In this document: piece after piece, positions 11,980 to 58,482 of the stretch
How the letters are laid out: each line of letters opens with the position of its first letter
Position numbering within the stretch: position 1 is the stretch's first letter
Assembly (NCBI RefSeq): GCF_947301925.1
Contig: NZ_CAMYUE010000001.1
Span: forward strand, 310,001 to 374,000
DNA: 64,000 nucleotides
Reading direction: 5' to 3'
From: an uncultured Ruminococcus sp.
GTDB taxonomy: Bacteria; Bacillota; Clostridia; Oscillospirales; Ruminococcaceae
Made by a program: the position numbers and the translations under genes
Notes under the pieces: model-generated
Told to the model about the DNA's origin: nothing
Databases searched by the model: none
Seen by the model: only the letters and a program-made list of their open reading frames with translations

Positions 11980-12007
11980 AAAAGAGAGCATAAGCTCTCT
12001 TTTTTTA
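11980..12007. terminator. Bidirectional terminator between araC-type gene and rnpB
   Basis: The hairpin AGAGAGC-ATAA-GCTCTCT is flanked by A and T runs on both sides, so it can end both converging transcripts. Confidence 0.85.
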
Positions 12008-12008
12008 T

Positions 12009-12352
12009 GACCAGACCGATAAGCCGGGTTCTGTCGTGTGCGGTAATTTATCTACGCTTATCGTCGCCGATAAGCTGAAGCCGTCATTACCTGTTATCCG
12101 CCGAGCCGACGTTGAGATAACAGGCACCAATAGACGTTGCATCGGATAGGGTTTACATAGCAGCGCTGTCTCCAGCACTCTGGTGAGCTCTTACCTCGCC
12201 TTTCCACCATCGCCGCCGTAAAGACGGCAGTATATCTCTGTTGCACTTGCCCTAAGGTCGCCCTCGGCTGCCGTTAGCAGCTACCCTGCTCTGTGATGCC
12301 CGGACTTTCCTCGTAAACTAAAGCGTTTCCGCTACCGCATAGTCTGCTCACC
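12009..12352 (-). ncRNA. rnpB: RNase P RNA (class A)
   Basis: Read on the minus strand, the transcript has the hallmark core elements: GAGGAAAGTCCGGGC near the 5' side, AGGGCAAGTGCAACAGAGA in the middle, GGTGGAAAGGCGAGG, and ACAGAACCCGGCTTAT close to the 3' end. This is the catalytic RNA that trims tRNA 5' leaders. Ends are approximate: the 5' end is set from the promoter at 12358-12386 and the 3' end from the terminator at 11980-12007. Confidence 0.95.
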
Positions 12353-45450: not shown

Positions 45451-45454
45451 CGAA

Positions 45455-45485
45455 AATACTGCCGAGTGATCGGCAGTATTTTTTT
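45455..45485 (+). terminator. Terminator of the MoxR operon
   Basis: AATACTGCCG pairs with CGGCAGTATT around a 6-nt loop and is followed by a T run. Confidence 0.9.
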
Positions 45486-45490
45486 CTTCA

Positions 45491-45526
45491 ACAAAAAGAA
45501 CAAGTGTTTGACATTGTTCTTTTTGT
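45491..45526. promoter_or_regulatory. Perfect 13-bp inverted repeat over the triad promoter, candidate operator
   Basis: ACAAAAAGAACAA (45491-45503) and TTGTTCTTTTTGT (45514-45526) are exact inverted copies with a 10-bp spacer. The -35 box TTGACA (45508-45513) lies in the spacer. A repressor dimer bound here would block the promoter. No candidate repressor gene is adjacent. Confidence 0.65.
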
Positions 45527-45536
45527 ATGCTATAAT
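45508..45536 (+). promoter_or_regulatory. Consensus promoter of the TerB-BrxD-helicase operon
   Basis: TTGACA and TATAAT match consensus with a 17-bp spacer, 34 bp before the GTG start of the first gene. The -35 box sits within the inverted repeat at 45491-45526. Confidence 0.85.
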
Positions 45537-45570
45537 AAAGGTTGAACACCGGAAAAAGGAGGCGTGAACT

Positions 45571-47082
45571 GTGTCGGATACCAAAGAGATATTGAACATG
45601 ATACTGCATGATGAGAAGCTTCTGAACAGCCGCGCTCTCCGTGACAGGATATATACCGATGAGCCCATATTAAGGCCTGCTTCCCAGCTTCGGCGTCCTG
45701 CTGCTCCCGAGAGAATAAAGGAGATGAAGGGGCTCGCATTCACTCCGGAGGCCTACTGGAAAACCTCGGCCTGGCTGTTTTATACGCAGGGGAAGTTCAT
45801 GGAGGACTATGAGGACAGCTTTTCCTATGACACGGACTTCGTTAAATACTATCCCTCATACAGAGAGCTCAGCACAGAGCAGCTCAGAGGTTATTTTTCG
45901 TGGCGCACCGATGTGCGCAGAGGCAATATAAAAAAAGCTCCCTCCCCCTTTGTTTTTATTTATCTGTATGAGCTGGTGAACTGCATCGGCTCTGATGATC
46001 CGAATGAATGCTTTTCACGAATGAAAAGCTTCTGCGACAGCTATCGCGCTATTGACGACTCCATTGTAAAATACACGGACGTATGGCTTGCTGATATGAT
46101 CGTTTACTACGGACTTGATGCCGCCCTTGCCGATGAGCTGAATGATATAAAATACGACAAAATGCTTCTCACACTTATCAACTGGGAAAGCTACAGCAAC
46201 GACGAACTGTTCGAGGCCATAGATTTCCTTTCAGCATATCAGCTGAAAAAATCTCTCTACTACAGCGCAGCCCCTGAGGAGCTGAAGACCGTTCTCGTCA
46301 GAAGCTTTGTCAGCCTTTCACGTTTCTTCCGCGATAAGCGCAAGAACTCACTGATCGACAAGCTTTTCGGCAATATGGTGGAGTGCTCCTGCAATATGTT
46401 CGCCTCGGCTGTTTTTTACGACAGACAGCCTATGCGAAGCTGTGAATACTCCCTCAATGATATCCATTCATTTACCTGTACAAACGGCAAATGGAAATGC
46501 AGGAAGTATTTCGGAAACAGAGGCCGCAACGGCCGGCTTGGCGACCTTGTCAGGGCTGTGGACAGTCTTATGCGTGATAAGGCTGATTTCAAACACAAAA
46601 TAAGCTTCACAGGCGTATCAAAATCCGCGGTAAAGCTCATACAATCTGAGATAGACAGTTTTTACGAGGAAAAACGCCGAAAGGAAGCCGCAAAAATTGA
46701 AATTGATCTTTCTAAACTGGCCGGTATAAGAAGATCTGCCGATATCATCAGAGAAAAGCTTATAGTTGATGAGGAGGAGATCTCTGAACTCAGACAGTCC
46801 GAAGAAAACGTATGCGAAGATGAAAAAAGCTGTGAAAGCTGCTGTGAGCTTCCACTCGATAATGACGAGATATGCTTCATGAAGGCTCTGCTGTATAACG
46901 GAAATATTGCAGATATTGCAAAAAGCTGCGGAAAAATGGTATCTATTCTTGCCGATTCGGTAAACGAGAAGCTCTTTGACCGCTTCGGAGATACCGTTAT
47001 AGAATTTACAGGCGACCTTCCCGCACTTATTGAAGATTATACCGAAGAATTAATGGAAATGATACCTGATAACAAGGAGTAA
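45571..47082 (+). CDS. TerB_N/TerB_C domain protein, first gene of a BREX-like triad
   Basis: GTG start at 45571 behind AAAGGAGG; 503 residues. Residues ~50-250 match the TerB_N type (WLFYTQGKFMEDYEDSF, RGYFSWRTDVRRG, FVFIYLYELVNCIG). A middle part carries a basic surface (FGNRGRNGR). Residues ~365-500 match TerB_C (EIDLSKLAGIRRSADIIREK, then LIVDEEEISELRQ). No canonical small TerB metal-binding domain is obvious between them. TerB-containing systems are predicted stress or DNA-processing modules. The two downstream genes, spaced 4 and 11 bp, encode a BrxD-like ATPase and a helicase, so the three should act together. The biochemical role is unknown. Confidence 0.85.
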   Translation: MSDTKEILNMILHDEKLLNSRALRDRIYTDEPILRPASQLRRPAAPERIKEMKGLAFTPEAYWKTSAWLFYTQGKFMEDYEDSFSYDTDFVKYYPSYRELSTEQLRGYFSWRTDVRRGNIKKAPSPFVFIYLYELVNCIGSDDPNECFSRMKSFCDSYRAIDDSIVKYTDVWLADMIVYYGLDAALADELNDIKYDKMLLTLINWESYSNDELFEAIDFLSAYQLKKSLYYSAAPEELKTVLVRSFVSLSRFFRDKRKNSLIDKLFGNMVECSCNMFASAVFYDRQPMRSCEYSLNDIHSFTCTNGKWKCRKYFGNRGRNGRLGDLVRAVDSLMRDKADFKHKISFTGVSKSAVKLIQSEIDSFYEEKRRKEAAKIEIDLSKLAGIRRSADIIREKLIVDEEEISELRQSEENVCEDEKSCESCCELPLDNDEICFMKALLYNGNIADIAKSCGKMVSILADSVNEKLFDRFGDTVIEFTGDLPALIEDYTEELMEMIPDNKE

Positions 47083-47086
47083 ACCT

Positions 47087-48406
47087 ATGAAAATACCTAA
47101 AAGGATAGCTTCGTCCGTTATAAATTCCCTTAAAGGCGGCGTTGTTCCCCGCACGGGACTGCCCTACATCACAGTGGGACGAGAGACAGAGATCAATGCC
47201 CTGCTGCACGATGTGGATATTATCGCTGACGGAGGCGCTGCATTCCGCTTCATCTCAGGAAAATACGGAAGCGGAAAAAGCTTTCTGCTCCAGACTATAC
47301 GCAGCCACGTTATGGACAGGAATTTCGTTGTGGTCGACGCCGACCTTTCTCCCGAGAGAAGGCTCCAGGGCACAAAAGGTCAGGGACTTGCAACATATAA
47401 GGAGCTTATACGCAATATGTCAACAAAGACCCGTCCCGACGGCGGCGCTCTTACCCTTATACTTGACAGGTGGATAAGCGGTATCCGGACAGAAACAGCC
47501 GCAGAAAGCGGACTTCCCCCCGATCAGCCCGAATTCGGCAAAGCTGTTGAAAAGAAGATATACGAGGTCATAAACACGCTGAACGAAATGGTACACGGCT
47601 TTGATTTCGCAAAGCTGCTTACAATATATTATCATGCCTCCGTGGACGGCAATGACGAGGAAAAAGCCAAGGTGGTCAAGTGGTTCAGGGGCGAGTATAT
47701 CAACAAGACCGAGGCAAGATCTGAGCTTGGCGTCAATATTGTTATCAGCGATGATGACTGGTACGAATATATCAAGCTTTTCGCAATGTTCCTGAAAATG
47801 GCAGGCTACAGCGGTCTGCTCGTGCTCGTTGATGAGCTCGTCAATATATATAAGATACCAAACAGCATTACAAGGCAGTATAACTACGAGAAAATACTGA
47901 CTATGTATAATGATACACTTCAGGGCAAAGCAAAGTATATGGGTATCATCATGGGCGGAACTCCTCAGTGTATCGAGGATACGCGCCGCGGAGTGTACAG
48001 CTATGAGGCACTGCGCTCGCGTCTCTCGGAAGGCAGATTCGGCCGTGAGGGCATAAGGGATATGCTGGCTCCCGTCATACATCTCACCCCTCTCACATAC
48101 GAGGAAATGCTTGTACTTACCGAAAAACTGGCCGATATCCACGCACAGCTCTTTGATTACACACAGAAGATATCCCAGGAGGATATGATACACTTCATAC
48201 AGCTTGAATTCGGACGTATAGGCTCGGACAGCCATATAACTCCCCGTGAGGTCATAAGGGACTTTATTGAGCTGCTTGATATAATATACCAGAATCCACA
48301 GATAAATGTAAGTGAATTCATCGGCTCAGAGGCCATGAGCTTCTCAAAGCCCGATATGGGACAGGAACCATCAGATAACGAGGAATACGCAGAATTTGAG
48401 ATATAA
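47087..48406 (+). CDS. BrxD-like (DUF2791) P-loop ATPase
   Basis: 439 residues, AAGGAG before the ATG. Walker A is GKYGSGKS at residues 58-65 and Walker B LLVLVDE at 244-250; IIMGGTPQCIEDTRRGVYSY holds a probable sensor region. The N-terminus (RIASSVINSLKGGVVPRTG) and the GRETEIN block are typical for DUF2791/BrxD ATP-binding proteins, known from BREX type 2 loci. It probably couples ATP binding to loading of the downstream helicase on DNA; this is inference. No PglX, PglY, PglZ or other BREX gene is near. Confidence 0.88.
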   Translation: MKIPKRIASSVINSLKGGVVPRTGLPYITVGRETEINALLHDVDIIADGGAAFRFISGKYGSGKSFLLQTIRSHVMDRNFVVVDADLSPERRLQGTKGQGLATYKELIRNMSTKTRPDGGALTLILDRWISGIRTETAAESGLPPDQPEFGKAVEKKIYEVINTLNEMVHGFDFAKLLTIYYHASVDGNDEEKAKVVKWFRGEYINKTEARSELGVNIVISDDDWYEYIKLFAMFLKMAGYSGLLVLVDELVNIYKIPNSITRQYNYEKILTMYNDTLQGKAKYMGIIMGGTPQCIEDTRRGVYSYEALRSRLSEGRFGREGIRDMLAPVIHLTPLTYEEMLVLTEKLADIHAQLFDYTQKISQEDMIHFIQLEFGRIGSDSHITPREVIRDFIELLDIIYQNPQINVSEFIGSEAMSFSKPDMGQEPSDNEEYAEFEI

Positions 48407-48417
48407 GGACTTTTTCT

Positions 48418-50652
48418 ATGAGTATTTTTGAAAGGTATGCTCCCTTTATACAGGACTTTATATACCGAAACAACTGGGAATCCCTGCGCGCTATACAGGC
48501 TGCCGCAGGGGACGCTATTTTCAACACAGATGAAAACGTGCTGCTGACGGCTTCGACGGCCTCCGGAAAGACTGAAGCTGCTTTCTTCCCTATTCTTACC
48601 TTTTTCAGCGAGGATATGCCGAAAACAGTGGGAGCAATTTACATCGGTCCGCTGAAGGCCCTCATAAACGATCAGTTCACAAGACTGAACGATCTATGCG
48701 AGGAAGCGGATATACCTGTGTGGCACTGGCACGGTGATGTTGCACAGTCCCACAAGAGTCGTATGTTGAAATCTCCCTCCGGTATACTTCAGATAACGCC
48801 AGAATCCCTTGAGGCCATGATGATACGCAAACACGCGCTTATCCCTAAGCTTTTCGGCGATCTCAGATTCATCGTGATAGATGAGATACACTCGCTCATG
48901 CGCGGAGACCGCGGCGGTCAGACCATATGCCTGATAGAGCGGCTATGCAGAATGGCAGGCGTCAACCCCAGAAGGATAGGTCTGTCCGCAACCATCGGCG
49001 ATCCTGCTGCCGCAGGCGAATTTCTTGCCTATGGTACCGGCAGGGGCACCATAATCCCACGTATAGAAAGCAAGGGCGTAAAATGGCGCCTGTCAATGGA
49101 GCATTTCTATATAAGCCAGCAGGAACAGACAGATGAAATCAAAGCCGACGACGCACTTCCTGCCCTCGATATAAAAACAGATACGGCTCCGGAGCACGCA
49201 GACGCAGGCATGGGTTATATCTTTGAACATACAAGAGGCAAAAAGTGTCTCGTTTTTGTAAACTCACGGGAGGAATGCGAGGCTGTCACCACAACGCTCC
49301 GCTCCTACTGTGAGGCTAATCACGAGCCCGACCGTTTTCTCATACACCATGGCAATCTGTCGGCGGCATACCGCGAGACTGCCGAGGAAGCCATGAAGGA
49401 CGAGGACGTTTATATGACTACCTGTACTACTGCGACGCTTGAGCTTGGCATAGATATAGGCAGGCTTGAACGTGCGTTCCAGATCGAAGCTCCGTTTACG
49501 GTCTCCTCCTTCCTTCAGAGAATGGGCAGAACAGGAAGACGCGATCTTCCGCCTGAAATGTGGTTCGTTATCCGCGAGGAGCTTCCCGAACCGCGCTCCA
49601 TGCTACCCGAGACCATACCATGGTCGCTGATACAGGGTATAGCGCTCATACAGGTATATGCTGAAGAAAAATGGGTAGAGCCGCCTATGCTTGACAGACT
49701 TCCGTTCAGTCTGCTGTATCATCAGACCATGAGCACCCTTGCCTCCTGCGGTGAGCTGAGTCCCGCTGCTCTTGCGTCAAGGGTATTATCGCTGAAATAC
49801 TTCCATCGCATATCACAGGATGATTACAGGTGCCTTCTCAGACATCTGCTTGAAACAGATCATATTCAGCGCACCGACGAGGGCGGCCTTATAATCGGTC
49901 TTGCAGGCGAACGGATAGTCAACAGCTTCAAGTTCTATGCGGTTTTCCAGGAAAATGAAGAATATACCGTCCGCTGGGGCTCTCAGGAGCTTGGTACTCT
50001 TGTCAAACCGCCGCCGGCAGGTGAAAAGATAGCAATTGCCGGTCATGTATGGGTGGTGGAAGAGGTAGACCACAAGCGGAGACTTGTTTACTGTGAGCAG
50101 ATAAAGGGCAAAGTCCCCGCATACTTCGGAGACTGTCCCGGAGATATAAACACAAAGATACTTCTCCGTATGCGTCAGGTACTTGCGGAGGATAAAAGCT
50201 ATCCCTATCTCATGAAAAACGCTGCTGCAAGACTTTTGCAGGCAAGGAACACCGCACAGAACTCCGGCGTCACTGAAACTCCCCTCATATGTCTCGGCGG
50301 CAGTATGTGGTGTCTCTTTCCGTGGCTGGGCTCATACGCTTTTCTTGCTCTGGAACGCTTCCTGAAGCTGAAATGCGGTGAACGACTGGGACTTCGCGGT
50401 CTGGATTCATGCAGACCGTATTATATGCAGTTCACCATGAAGGTCACACCAGAGGAGTTTTTCGCCATAGTTTCCGAAGAAGCTGAAAAGAACTTCGATC
50501 CTCTGGAGCTGGTTTATCAGGGAGAAGTGCCTGTTTTTGAGAAATACGACGAATTCGTACCTCCTGAGCTGGTAAGAAAAGGCTTCGCTTACGGTATACT
50601 GAATATCGACGAAATGAGGTCGAGGATCAGAGAATGGAAAGAATTAATTTAA
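48418..50652 (+). CDS. BrxHI/Lhr-like superfamily 2 helicase
   Basis: 744 residues. Motif I TASTASGKTEAA (44-55), motif II DEIH (155-158), motif III GLSATIGDP (188-196) and motif VI QRMGRTGRRD are intact. The C-terminal ~350 residues are not a standard Lhr tail; they include a winged-helix-like stretch and a beta-rich part (VWVVEEVDHKRRLVYCEQIK). It belongs with the DEAD/DEAH helicases paired with BrxD-type ATPases. It should translocate on single-stranded DNA. It closes the triad, with 11 bp after the ATPase gene. No terminator is obvious before the lysR promoter. Confidence 0.9.
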   Translation: MSIFERYAPFIQDFIYRNNWESLRAIQAAAGDAIFNTDENVLLTASTASGKTEAAFFPILTFFSEDMPKTVGAIYIGPLKALINDQFTRLNDLCEEADIPVWHWHGDVAQSHKSRMLKSPSGILQITPESLEAMMIRKHALIPKLFGDLRFIVIDEIHSLMRGDRGGQTICLIERLCRMAGVNPRRIGLSATIGDPAAAGEFLAYGTGRGTIIPRIESKGVKWRLSMEHFYISQQEQTDEIKADDALPALDIKTDTAPEHADAGMGYIFEHTRGKKCLVFVNSREECEAVTTTLRSYCEANHEPDRFLIHHGNLSAAYRETAEEAMKDEDVYMTTCTTATLELGIDIGRLERAFQIEAPFTVSSFLQRMGRTGRRDLPPEMWFVIREELPEPRSMLPETIPWSLIQGIALIQVYAEEKWVEPPMLDRLPFSLLYHQTMSTLASCGELSPAALASRVLSLKYFHRISQDDYRCLLRHLLETDHIQRTDEGGLIIGLAGERIVNSFKFYAVFQENEEYTVRWGSQELGTLVKPPPAGEKIAIAGHVWVVEEVDHKRRLVYCEQIKGKVPAYFGDCPGDINTKILLRMRQVLAEDKSYPYLMKNAAARLLQARNTAQNSGVTETPLICLGGSMWCLFPWLGSYAFLALERFLKLKCGERLGLRGLDSCRPYYMQFTMKVTPEEFFAIVSEEAEKNFDPLELVYQGEVPVFEKYDEFVPPELVRKGFAYGILNIDEMRSRIREWKELI

Positions 50653-50740: not shown

Positions 50741-51679
50741 ATGAAAATACAACAGCTTGAATATGTGATCGCTGTGGCAAGAGAAGGTAGTATTACCAAA
50801 GCGGCAAAGAAGTTATATCAGGCTCAGCCTAATATAAGTATTGCCCTTAAAGAGCTTGAAGCGTCTCTTGGCATACAGATCTTTAACCGCTCTCCCAACG
50901 GAATGATCCTCACGCCTGAGGGTGAGGAGTTCCTTGCAAGAGCTCAGACCATTGTGGACGAAATGCAGAGTCTCGAAAGAGATTATGCCCAGACTCCCGA
51001 AAACGAACTGAAGCTGAAGGTCGCAGCCGCCCGTTCAACATATGCTACATCTGCTATGGGCAAGCTCATAAGCGACTACTCAGAAAGAACCGACAAGATC
51101 GAAGTACACGTTATGGAGACCAGCACTGCAAAGGTCATGGAGGATATCTGTGCCGGCAAATACGATATAGGCTTCATAAGGGTCCCCAGTACATACTCCG
51201 AAATGATCGAGAGCAGACTCAAGACCCGTAATCTTGTGGGAAAGACCGTTATGGAATTCCCGCTGCAGATCGTCATGGCTATGGATCATCCTCTCGCAAA
51301 GTATGAGGATATCCCCTATGAGCTCCTGTTTGAATATCCCGAGATCATACACGGCGACGACGAACCCGAAATGATCAGGCGTGCGTCGATCAACCAGGAC
51401 TACGATGACAAACGTTCAACCAAGCGCATATTCATCTATGACCGCGGCACACAGATCAGTATGCTCAAAACGGTTAAGAACGCATATATGTGGGTTCCTC
51501 CCATGTCACAGAAGCTTCTGAAGTACAATGATCTCGTTACAAGAAAATGCTCATATGCAAACAATCTTAACAGGGATATGATAATCTACCGCAGAGCAAG
51601 CGAAAACAGCTCACTCATTGCGGACTGTATAAGAGCGGTTTACGAATACGCTGATAAGGTCGAAGGCCTTGAAATATAA
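50741..51679 (+). CDS. LysR family transcriptional regulator
   Basis: 312 residues. The N-terminal winged helix-turn-helix is classical (MKIQQLEYVIAVAREGSITK, then AAKKLYQAQPNISIALKELE, LGIQIFNRSPNGMILTPEG). The C-terminal periplasmic-binding-like effector domain follows. LysR genes are usually divergent from their target, but here the upstream operon is co-directional and the neighbour downstream convergent, so the regulon is not evident. The effector is unknown. A strong terminator follows. Confidence 0.93.
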   Translation: MKIQQLEYVIAVAREGSITKAAKKLYQAQPNISIALKELEASLGIQIFNRSPNGMILTPEGEEFLARAQTIVDEMQSLERDYAQTPENELKLKVAAARSTYATSAMGKLISDYSERTDKIEVHVMETSTAKVMEDICAGKYDIGFIRVPSTYSEMIESRLKTRNLVGKTVMEFPLQIVMAMDHPLAKYEDIPYELLFEYPEIIHGDDEPEMIRRASINQDYDDKRSTKRIFIYDRGTQISMLKTVKNAYMWVPPMSQKLLKYNDLVTRKCSYANNLNRDMIIYRRASENSSLIADCIRAVYEYADKVEGLEI

Positions 51680-57561: not shown

Positions 57562-58482
57562 ATGAACTACAGACCTGAAGGCTGCATTTACGATTCACCG
57601 AAAAATCAAAGGTATATCTCATCGCAGGAGGGCCTTTCGGAAGCAATGAACAGCGGTATCATACTTGAAGCAAGAGTGAAACTCTGCACCAGTTCCCATG
57701 ATCTGATCGTTGATCTCCCCTGCGCAAGGGGGATCATTCCGCGGGAGGAAGGAGCAATAGGCGTAAAGGAAGGAAATACCCGTGATATCGCCCTGATATC
57801 ACGGGTAAACAGGATAGTCTGCTTCAAGGTCACAGAGCTTGTACTCGGCGACAACGATGAACTGACAGCAATACTCTCCCGCAGAGAGGCTCAGCTTGAA
57901 TGTACCCGCAATTACATATCAACTCTGTCAGCAGGAGAAATAATAGAGGCAAGAGTTACTCATCTTGAGAAATTCGGCAGTTTTGTGGATATAGGCTGCG
58001 GTATTCCGTCGCTCATACCTATAGACGCGCTGTCAGTATCGCGTATATCCCACCCTTCGGATCGCTTCACTACCGGTCAGCTGATAAAGGCTGTGGTCAC
58101 AGGCAGAGAAGACGGACGTATTTTACTCTCACATAAGGAGCTTCTTGGCACATGGGAGGAAAATGCAGCCTGCTTCGGTACAGGAGAGACAGTTCCGGGA
58201 ATAGTACGCTCCACAGAGGATTACGGCATATTCGTCGAGCTGACGCCGAATCTTGCAGGTCTCGCCGAGCCCCGCGAGGGTATAAAAGCCGGTCAGAGCG
58301 TAAGTGTATATATAAAGGCTATACTGCCTGATAAAATGAAAATAAAGCTGATAATCGTCGATGTCTGCTGCCAGCACTCCGAGCCTATGCCATTCAGGTA
58401 CTTCAAGGACAGCGGAAAACTTGACGTCTGGAGATATTCCACTGAATCATCGGGCAAGGATATAAAGACCGTCTTTACATAA
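57562..58482 (+). CDS. S1 RNA-binding domain protein, RpsA-like
   Basis: 306 residues, ACGGAGGT before the ATG. Three S1-like OB-fold repeats can be recognised: a divergent one (~25-110), a clear one (~125-190, IIEARVTHLEKFGSFVDIGC) and another (~205-270, VPGIVRSTEDYGIFVELTPN). The C-terminal ~35 residues (HSEPMPFRYFKDSGKLDVW) are outside the repeats. In many Clostridia S1 repeats are fused to IspH; here the protein is stand-alone and short compared with E. coli S1. It probably binds mRNA or ribosomes. Confidence 0.87.
   Translation: MNYRPEGCIYDSPKNQRYISSQEGLSEAMNSGIILEARVKLCTSSHDLIVDLPCARGIIPREEGAIGVKEGNTRDIALISRVNRIVCFKVTELVLGDNDELTAILSRREAQLECTRNYISTLSAGEIIEARVTHLEKFGSFVDIGCGIPSLIPIDALSVSRISHPSDRFTTGQLIKAVVTGREDGRILLSHKELLGTWEENAACFGTGETVPGIVRSTEDYGIFVELTPNLAGLAEPREGIKAGQSVSVYIKAILPDKMKIKLIIVDVCCQHSEPMPFRYFKDSGKLDVWRYSTESSGKDIKTVFT

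Follow-up and report, generated by a model that had tools for sequence, protein, structure and literature searches.

A predicted LexA box over the -35 element of a Shango anti-phage operon in an uncultured Ruminococcus

Background

How defence systems stay quiet until they are needed is an open question. Most of the answers known so far are damage-sensing regulators dedicated to the operon that they adjoin. CapW/BrxR, CapH+CapP and CapK+CapS are DNA-damage-responsive regulators of immune operons (PMC13373217, PMC9122601). The evidence presented here points to the cell's own SOS repressor. The likeness would be a defence operon that is repressed until DNA damage is sensed. The difference is that the regulators above are dedicated and encoded beside the operon, whereas here a global SOS repressor would serve. 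Local control of the CapW/BrxR type does not describe this locus, since a regulator gene was not found beside the operon promoter.

The Gram-positive LexA/SOS regulon is another point of comparison. The LexA box of B. subtilis is GAAC-N4-GTTC. In C. difficile LexA sites read GAAC-N4-GTTT or GAAC-N4-GTTC, and the GTTT form is the one at lexA, recA and ruvC (PMC4234289). The locus described here resembles this regulon in its half-sites, their spacing, their position over promoter elements, and a LexA with cleavage and catalytic motifs in the genome. It differs in its cargo: an anti-phage operon takes the place of a repair, recombination or prophage gene.

The operon itself also has described counterparts. 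Shango (SngABC) has been shown in E. coli and P. aeruginosa, and phage protection has been shown for the system of P. aeruginosa PA14 (PMC10250203). Our operon encodes the same parts in the same order: a TerB-domain protein, a BrxC/D-like ATPase and a DEAD/DEAH helicase. We found no report of LexA control of Shango in the literature searched, which is weak evidence of novelty.

The operon and its promoter

The window, meaning the whole 64-kb stretch of DNA that was analysed, comes from a rumen Ruminococcus and carries three adjacent and collinear genes on the forward strand. sngA (45571-47082) matches TerB_N (8.5e-27), TerB_C (1.9e-20) and SngA (4.4e-73), and has a GTG start behind AAGGAGG (45556-45562). 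sngB (47087-48406) encodes a BrxC/BrxD-like ATPase (BrxC_BrxD 1e-170; SngB 6.4e-192). sngC (48418-50652) encodes a DEAD/DEAH helicase (SngC 1.6e-279). Judged by these profile matches the triad is Shango (SngA-SngB-SngC), a known anti-phage system, and they bear out the preliminary description, which had taken it for a defence-type operon. Across the operon (45571-50652) SngA diverges faster than its partners, with 62-72% identity in close relatives against 84-91% for SngB and SngC, as might be expected if SngA made the contact with phage.

The promoter matches the sigma-70 consensus at 12 of 12 positions. The -35 hexamer TTGACA (45508-45513, + strand) is followed after 17 bp by TATAAT (45531-45536), with TG before it. 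This extended -10 element, TGCTATAAT (45528-45536, + strand), is found in most orthologous promoters. The upstream neighbour of the operon encodes a DUF308 membrane protein. Its probable terminator (45453-45482, + strand), a 13-bp stem with a T-run, stands between it and the Shango promoter. At its downstream end the operon is followed directly by a gene for a LysR-type regulator (50741-51679). The earlier statement that no regulator is encoded beside the operon therefore holds at the promoter but not at the other end. The closest relatives are Ruminococcus flavefaciens strains, and in this group the LysR gene lies next to Shango at 89-95% identity. Most of the closest relatives have both neighbours around Shango as well, and this suggests that the system has been inherited vertically at one fixed spot in the chromosome. 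A search of the window for Rfam elements found RNase P alone (bacterial class A RNA, 12004-12350, minus strand).

The inverted repeat

A perfect 13-bp inverted repeat around the -35 box had been reported, and it is present exactly as noted. The left arm is ACAAAAAGAACAA (45491-45503) and the right arm is TTGTTCTTTTTGT (45514-45526), which falls between -35 and -10. The arms are complementary at 13 of 13 positions, and their 10-nt spacer contains the -35 hexamer. As a single strand the dyad folds at -11.9 kcal/mol (z -5.1), with extra TGT/ACA pairing within the spacer.

This dyad is more than a trivial coincidence. When the 200-bp upstream region is shuffled by dinucleotides, perfect arms of 13 bp or more with a spacer of up to 20 turn up in 5e-5 of cases. 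Under a model that draws on the columns of 15 orthologous promoters the probability is 8.5e-6 per promoter. In the whole window 0.035 such dyads are expected versus 3 found, one of which is the terminator of the DUF308 gene. Another perfect 13-bp inverted repeat (TACCCGTGATATC, loop of 5 nt) lies at 57777-57807.

The dyad is not shared with relatives. Own-genome counts in this work are pattern searches, and they find it once in the 3.49-Mb genome. There is no match at 0-1 mismatch in the 124 other genomes of the genus. In the 15 orthologous promoters the stretch that corresponds to the right arm varies freely: against the left arm it pairs at only 2-7 of 13 positions, close to the chance level. 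Only the inner GAACAA of the left arm is kept among relatives, as part of the box described below. The conservation of the dyad among orthologous triads had been proposed as a check. When it was run, the orthologous operons turned out to keep the promoter without the dyad, which speaks against the dyad as the operator. This comparison and the genus-wide search rule out the dyad as a conserved operator. It looks specific to this one strain.

The improbability of the dyad is not accounted for by the LexA site. Our guess is that a template switch, primed by the conserved mini-palindrome TGT-TTG-ACA, may have copied one arm onto the other. TGTTTGACA is kept in most close relatives, so a template switch there could have made the second arm.

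The predicted LexA box in the window

The conserved element is offset from the dyad. It is a predicted LexA/SOS box, GAACAAGTGTTT (45498-45509, + strand), which draws on the spacer and, of the left arm, on the inner half only. Its right half enters the -35 box, as seen in GTTTGACA. The sequence fits the Gram-positive LexA/SOS box GAAC-N4-GTTC/T. It has an A before GAAC where close relatives have a C, and GTTT instead of GTTC.

A matrix was built from 21 sites outside Shango, taken from the lexA and error-prone polymerase promoters of relatives; these training sites were chosen by eye from SOS promoters. With this matrix the window box ranks first in the 64 kb at 14.2 bits, and the next site scores 9.2. 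The training sites themselves score 4.3-20.2 when each is left out in turn, mostly 13-20. A matrix from the lexA-promoter sites alone again puts the window box first. With one made only from six R. flavefaciens polymerase sites it drops to second place in the window, where a coding site outranks it. The pattern GAACRNRYGTTY occurs 8 times forward and 4 times reverse in the strain's own genome versus 35 and 40 for the reversed control, as if stray LexA boxes were avoided.

The box across related Shango promoters

Shango loci were gathered from 299 genomes of the family, 80 named genome contigs and 125 genomes of the genus, and 86 nonredundant sngA upstream regions were retained. Fifteen nonredundant Shango promoters, the window included, have GAACNNNN[GC]TTTGACA between -73 and -106 relative to the sngA start. 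The spacer is free to vary in these promoters. R. flavefaciens relatives, for example, have TCGAACAAGTGTTTGACA, which they keep together with the extended -10 when aligned on the promoter. If the alignment is anchored on TTGACA and not on the box, GAAC is found 10 bases before it in 15 of 30 consensus promoters.

At a threshold of 14 bits, 15.9 kb of Shango upstreams hold 25 sites and 934 kb of flanking DNA hold 5, which makes the sites about 290-fold denser in the upstreams. Sites of at least 12 bits are found in 33 of the 86 upstreams, versus 0.54 expected from shuffles. The right half of these 33 sites falls in the -35 for 15, in the -10 for 7 (e.g. GTTATAAT) and elsewhere for 11. The box lies over the -10 (CGAACATATGTTATAAT) in L106, L116, L123, L124 and L127, and elsewhere upstream (GAACAAATGTTC) in L162 and L164. 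If a common repressor acted while its operators turned over, one would expect just this: half-sites that stay constant and a position that shifts. Four genomes of the R. flavefaciens group each have a single copy of the strict pattern CGAACRNRYGTTYG, located at the Shango promoter, although its reversed version is found 1 to 5 times in each.

It must be said that this conservation at orthologous promoters is lineage-restricted. A good box is missing in R. flavefaciens YAD2003 (L105), in R. albus and in about half of the sampled upstreams; the box is predicted in roughly 40-50% of the sampled relatives. Among 20 Bacillota genomes drawn from across the phylum, an upstream near-match with the palindrome kept was found in only 1. 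The Shango of a Paenibacillus cellulositrophicus megaplasmid (L266) has a perfect GAACGTGCGTTC that runs into the -10 TATAAT, about 160 bp before the TerB gene. A search for CTGT-N8-ACAG (at most 1 mismatch, within 300 bp) found none at two enterobacterial Shango upstreams (Klebsiella variicola and Pantoea). Universal SOS control of Shango is unsupported, both phylum-wide and in Klebsiella variicola, Pantoea and Pseudoalteromonas.

SOS genes and LexA of the lineage

The same site is found at known SOS genes of the lineage. In the strain's own genome an error-prone polymerase gene has AAGAACGAATGTTCGA just after its -10. Relatives show AAGAACAGATGTTCGA and similar sites at their error-prone polymerase promoters, and in more distant relatives AAACAAATGTTTGC is found at the lexA promoters. 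In R. flavefaciens lexA lies directly behind murC, and a box was not seen there. Upstream of the error-prone polymerase -35 in L202, L203, L205 and L208 there is a second conserved element, AAAAAGAAAACATATTTTCTTTTT, which may be another LexA box in degenerate form. Near position 1501 of L305, and also in L291, a promoter with two strong LexA boxes (AGAACAGATGTTCTATAAT and TAGAACAATAGTTCGC) precedes a short open frame, called at 93 aa. Going by these boxes, the frame is an unnamed SOS gene of R. flavefaciens, among the strict-box matches listed.

The strain's genome has one LexA (TIGR00498, 182.9 bits against a cut-off of 110.95). Its motifs are in the right order: the Ala-Gly cleavage site in TAGRP, the serine in GESM and the lysine in VKRF. 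By these motifs it is a cleavable LexA.

Proposed LexA control and its alternatives

Very probably, we argue, the Shango promoter carries a LexA operator, LexA represses Shango, and DNA damage derepresses it. LexA bound at GAACAAGTGTTT would cover the -35 hexamer and hold a strong promoter shut. Phage attack or other DNA damage would produce single-stranded DNA. LexA self-cleavage, stimulated by RecA, would then free the promoter and Shango would be made. We infer these steps of repression and release from the established SOS circuit. Tight repression by a trans-acting protein over the -35, as first proposed, is still the most likely arrangement, but the operator would be the 12-bp LexA box and not the 13-bp dyad. 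The idea that one of the triad proteins could be the repressor was not borne out: since the conserved element is a LexA/SOS box, the repressor would be the global LexA. Control by the SOS repressor would also explain why a regulator is not encoded at the promoter.

One can imagine a dedicated or phage-like repressor that uses the dyad itself as its operator. It is perfect, it is improbable at this spot by both estimates above, and it is ideally placed over the -35. We nevertheless give this little credence. The dyad is missing from all 15 related promoters that are built alike around the -35, it is without a second match in its own genome or a near one in the 124 other genomes of the genus, and the promoter has no repressor gene beside it. 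It is likewise improbable that the dyad strengthens the LexA site, a scenario we rate slightly lower still. Here the dyad would add a third half-site, GTTC (45516-45519), and LexA would bind more strongly in this strain. The resulting GAAC-N4-GTTT-N6-GTTC does put the extra GTTC exactly 10 bp after the GTTT half, which is one helical turn, and chance is a poor explanation for the dyad. The extra half-site is missing, however, in close relatives with the same GTTT half, and LexA is known to bind palindromic pairs, not tandem half-sites. The least probable scenario by some way is a transcribed hairpin or terminator. The dyad folds well as a single strand, but it lies upstream of the -10, which means it is not transcribed from its own promoter, and on this position we reject the scenario. 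It is also A/T-rich, a T-run does not follow it, and the gene before it is already served by a terminator of its own.

The last scenario accepts the GAAC-N4-GTTT box and gives it to another regulator, such as the downstream LysR protein or a phage-type repressor. The conservation of the LysR gene beside Shango in the R. flavefaciens group speaks for it. This too is improbable, on a par with a dedicated repressor at the dyad. The LysR gene is also present in L105, where the box is missing. LysR sites have the form T-N11-A. In several other genomes, some of them only distant relatives, the promoters of lexA and error-prone polymerase genes carry this box too.

Implications

The eye-catching perfect dyad invites a natural misreading, and the comparison with relatives corrects it: the dyad is not the conserved operator. 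For the lineage we lean towards a scenario in which these gut and rumen Ruminococcus wired a chromosomal, vertically kept Shango into the SOS regulon. The box would have re-evolved repeatedly at different promoter spots (the -35, the -10 and elsewhere upstream), and DNA damage would arm the defence. P. cellulositrophicus would be a separate case. LexA control would link Shango to DNA damage, and would hint at a system that is costly or that acts on damaged or replicating DNA.
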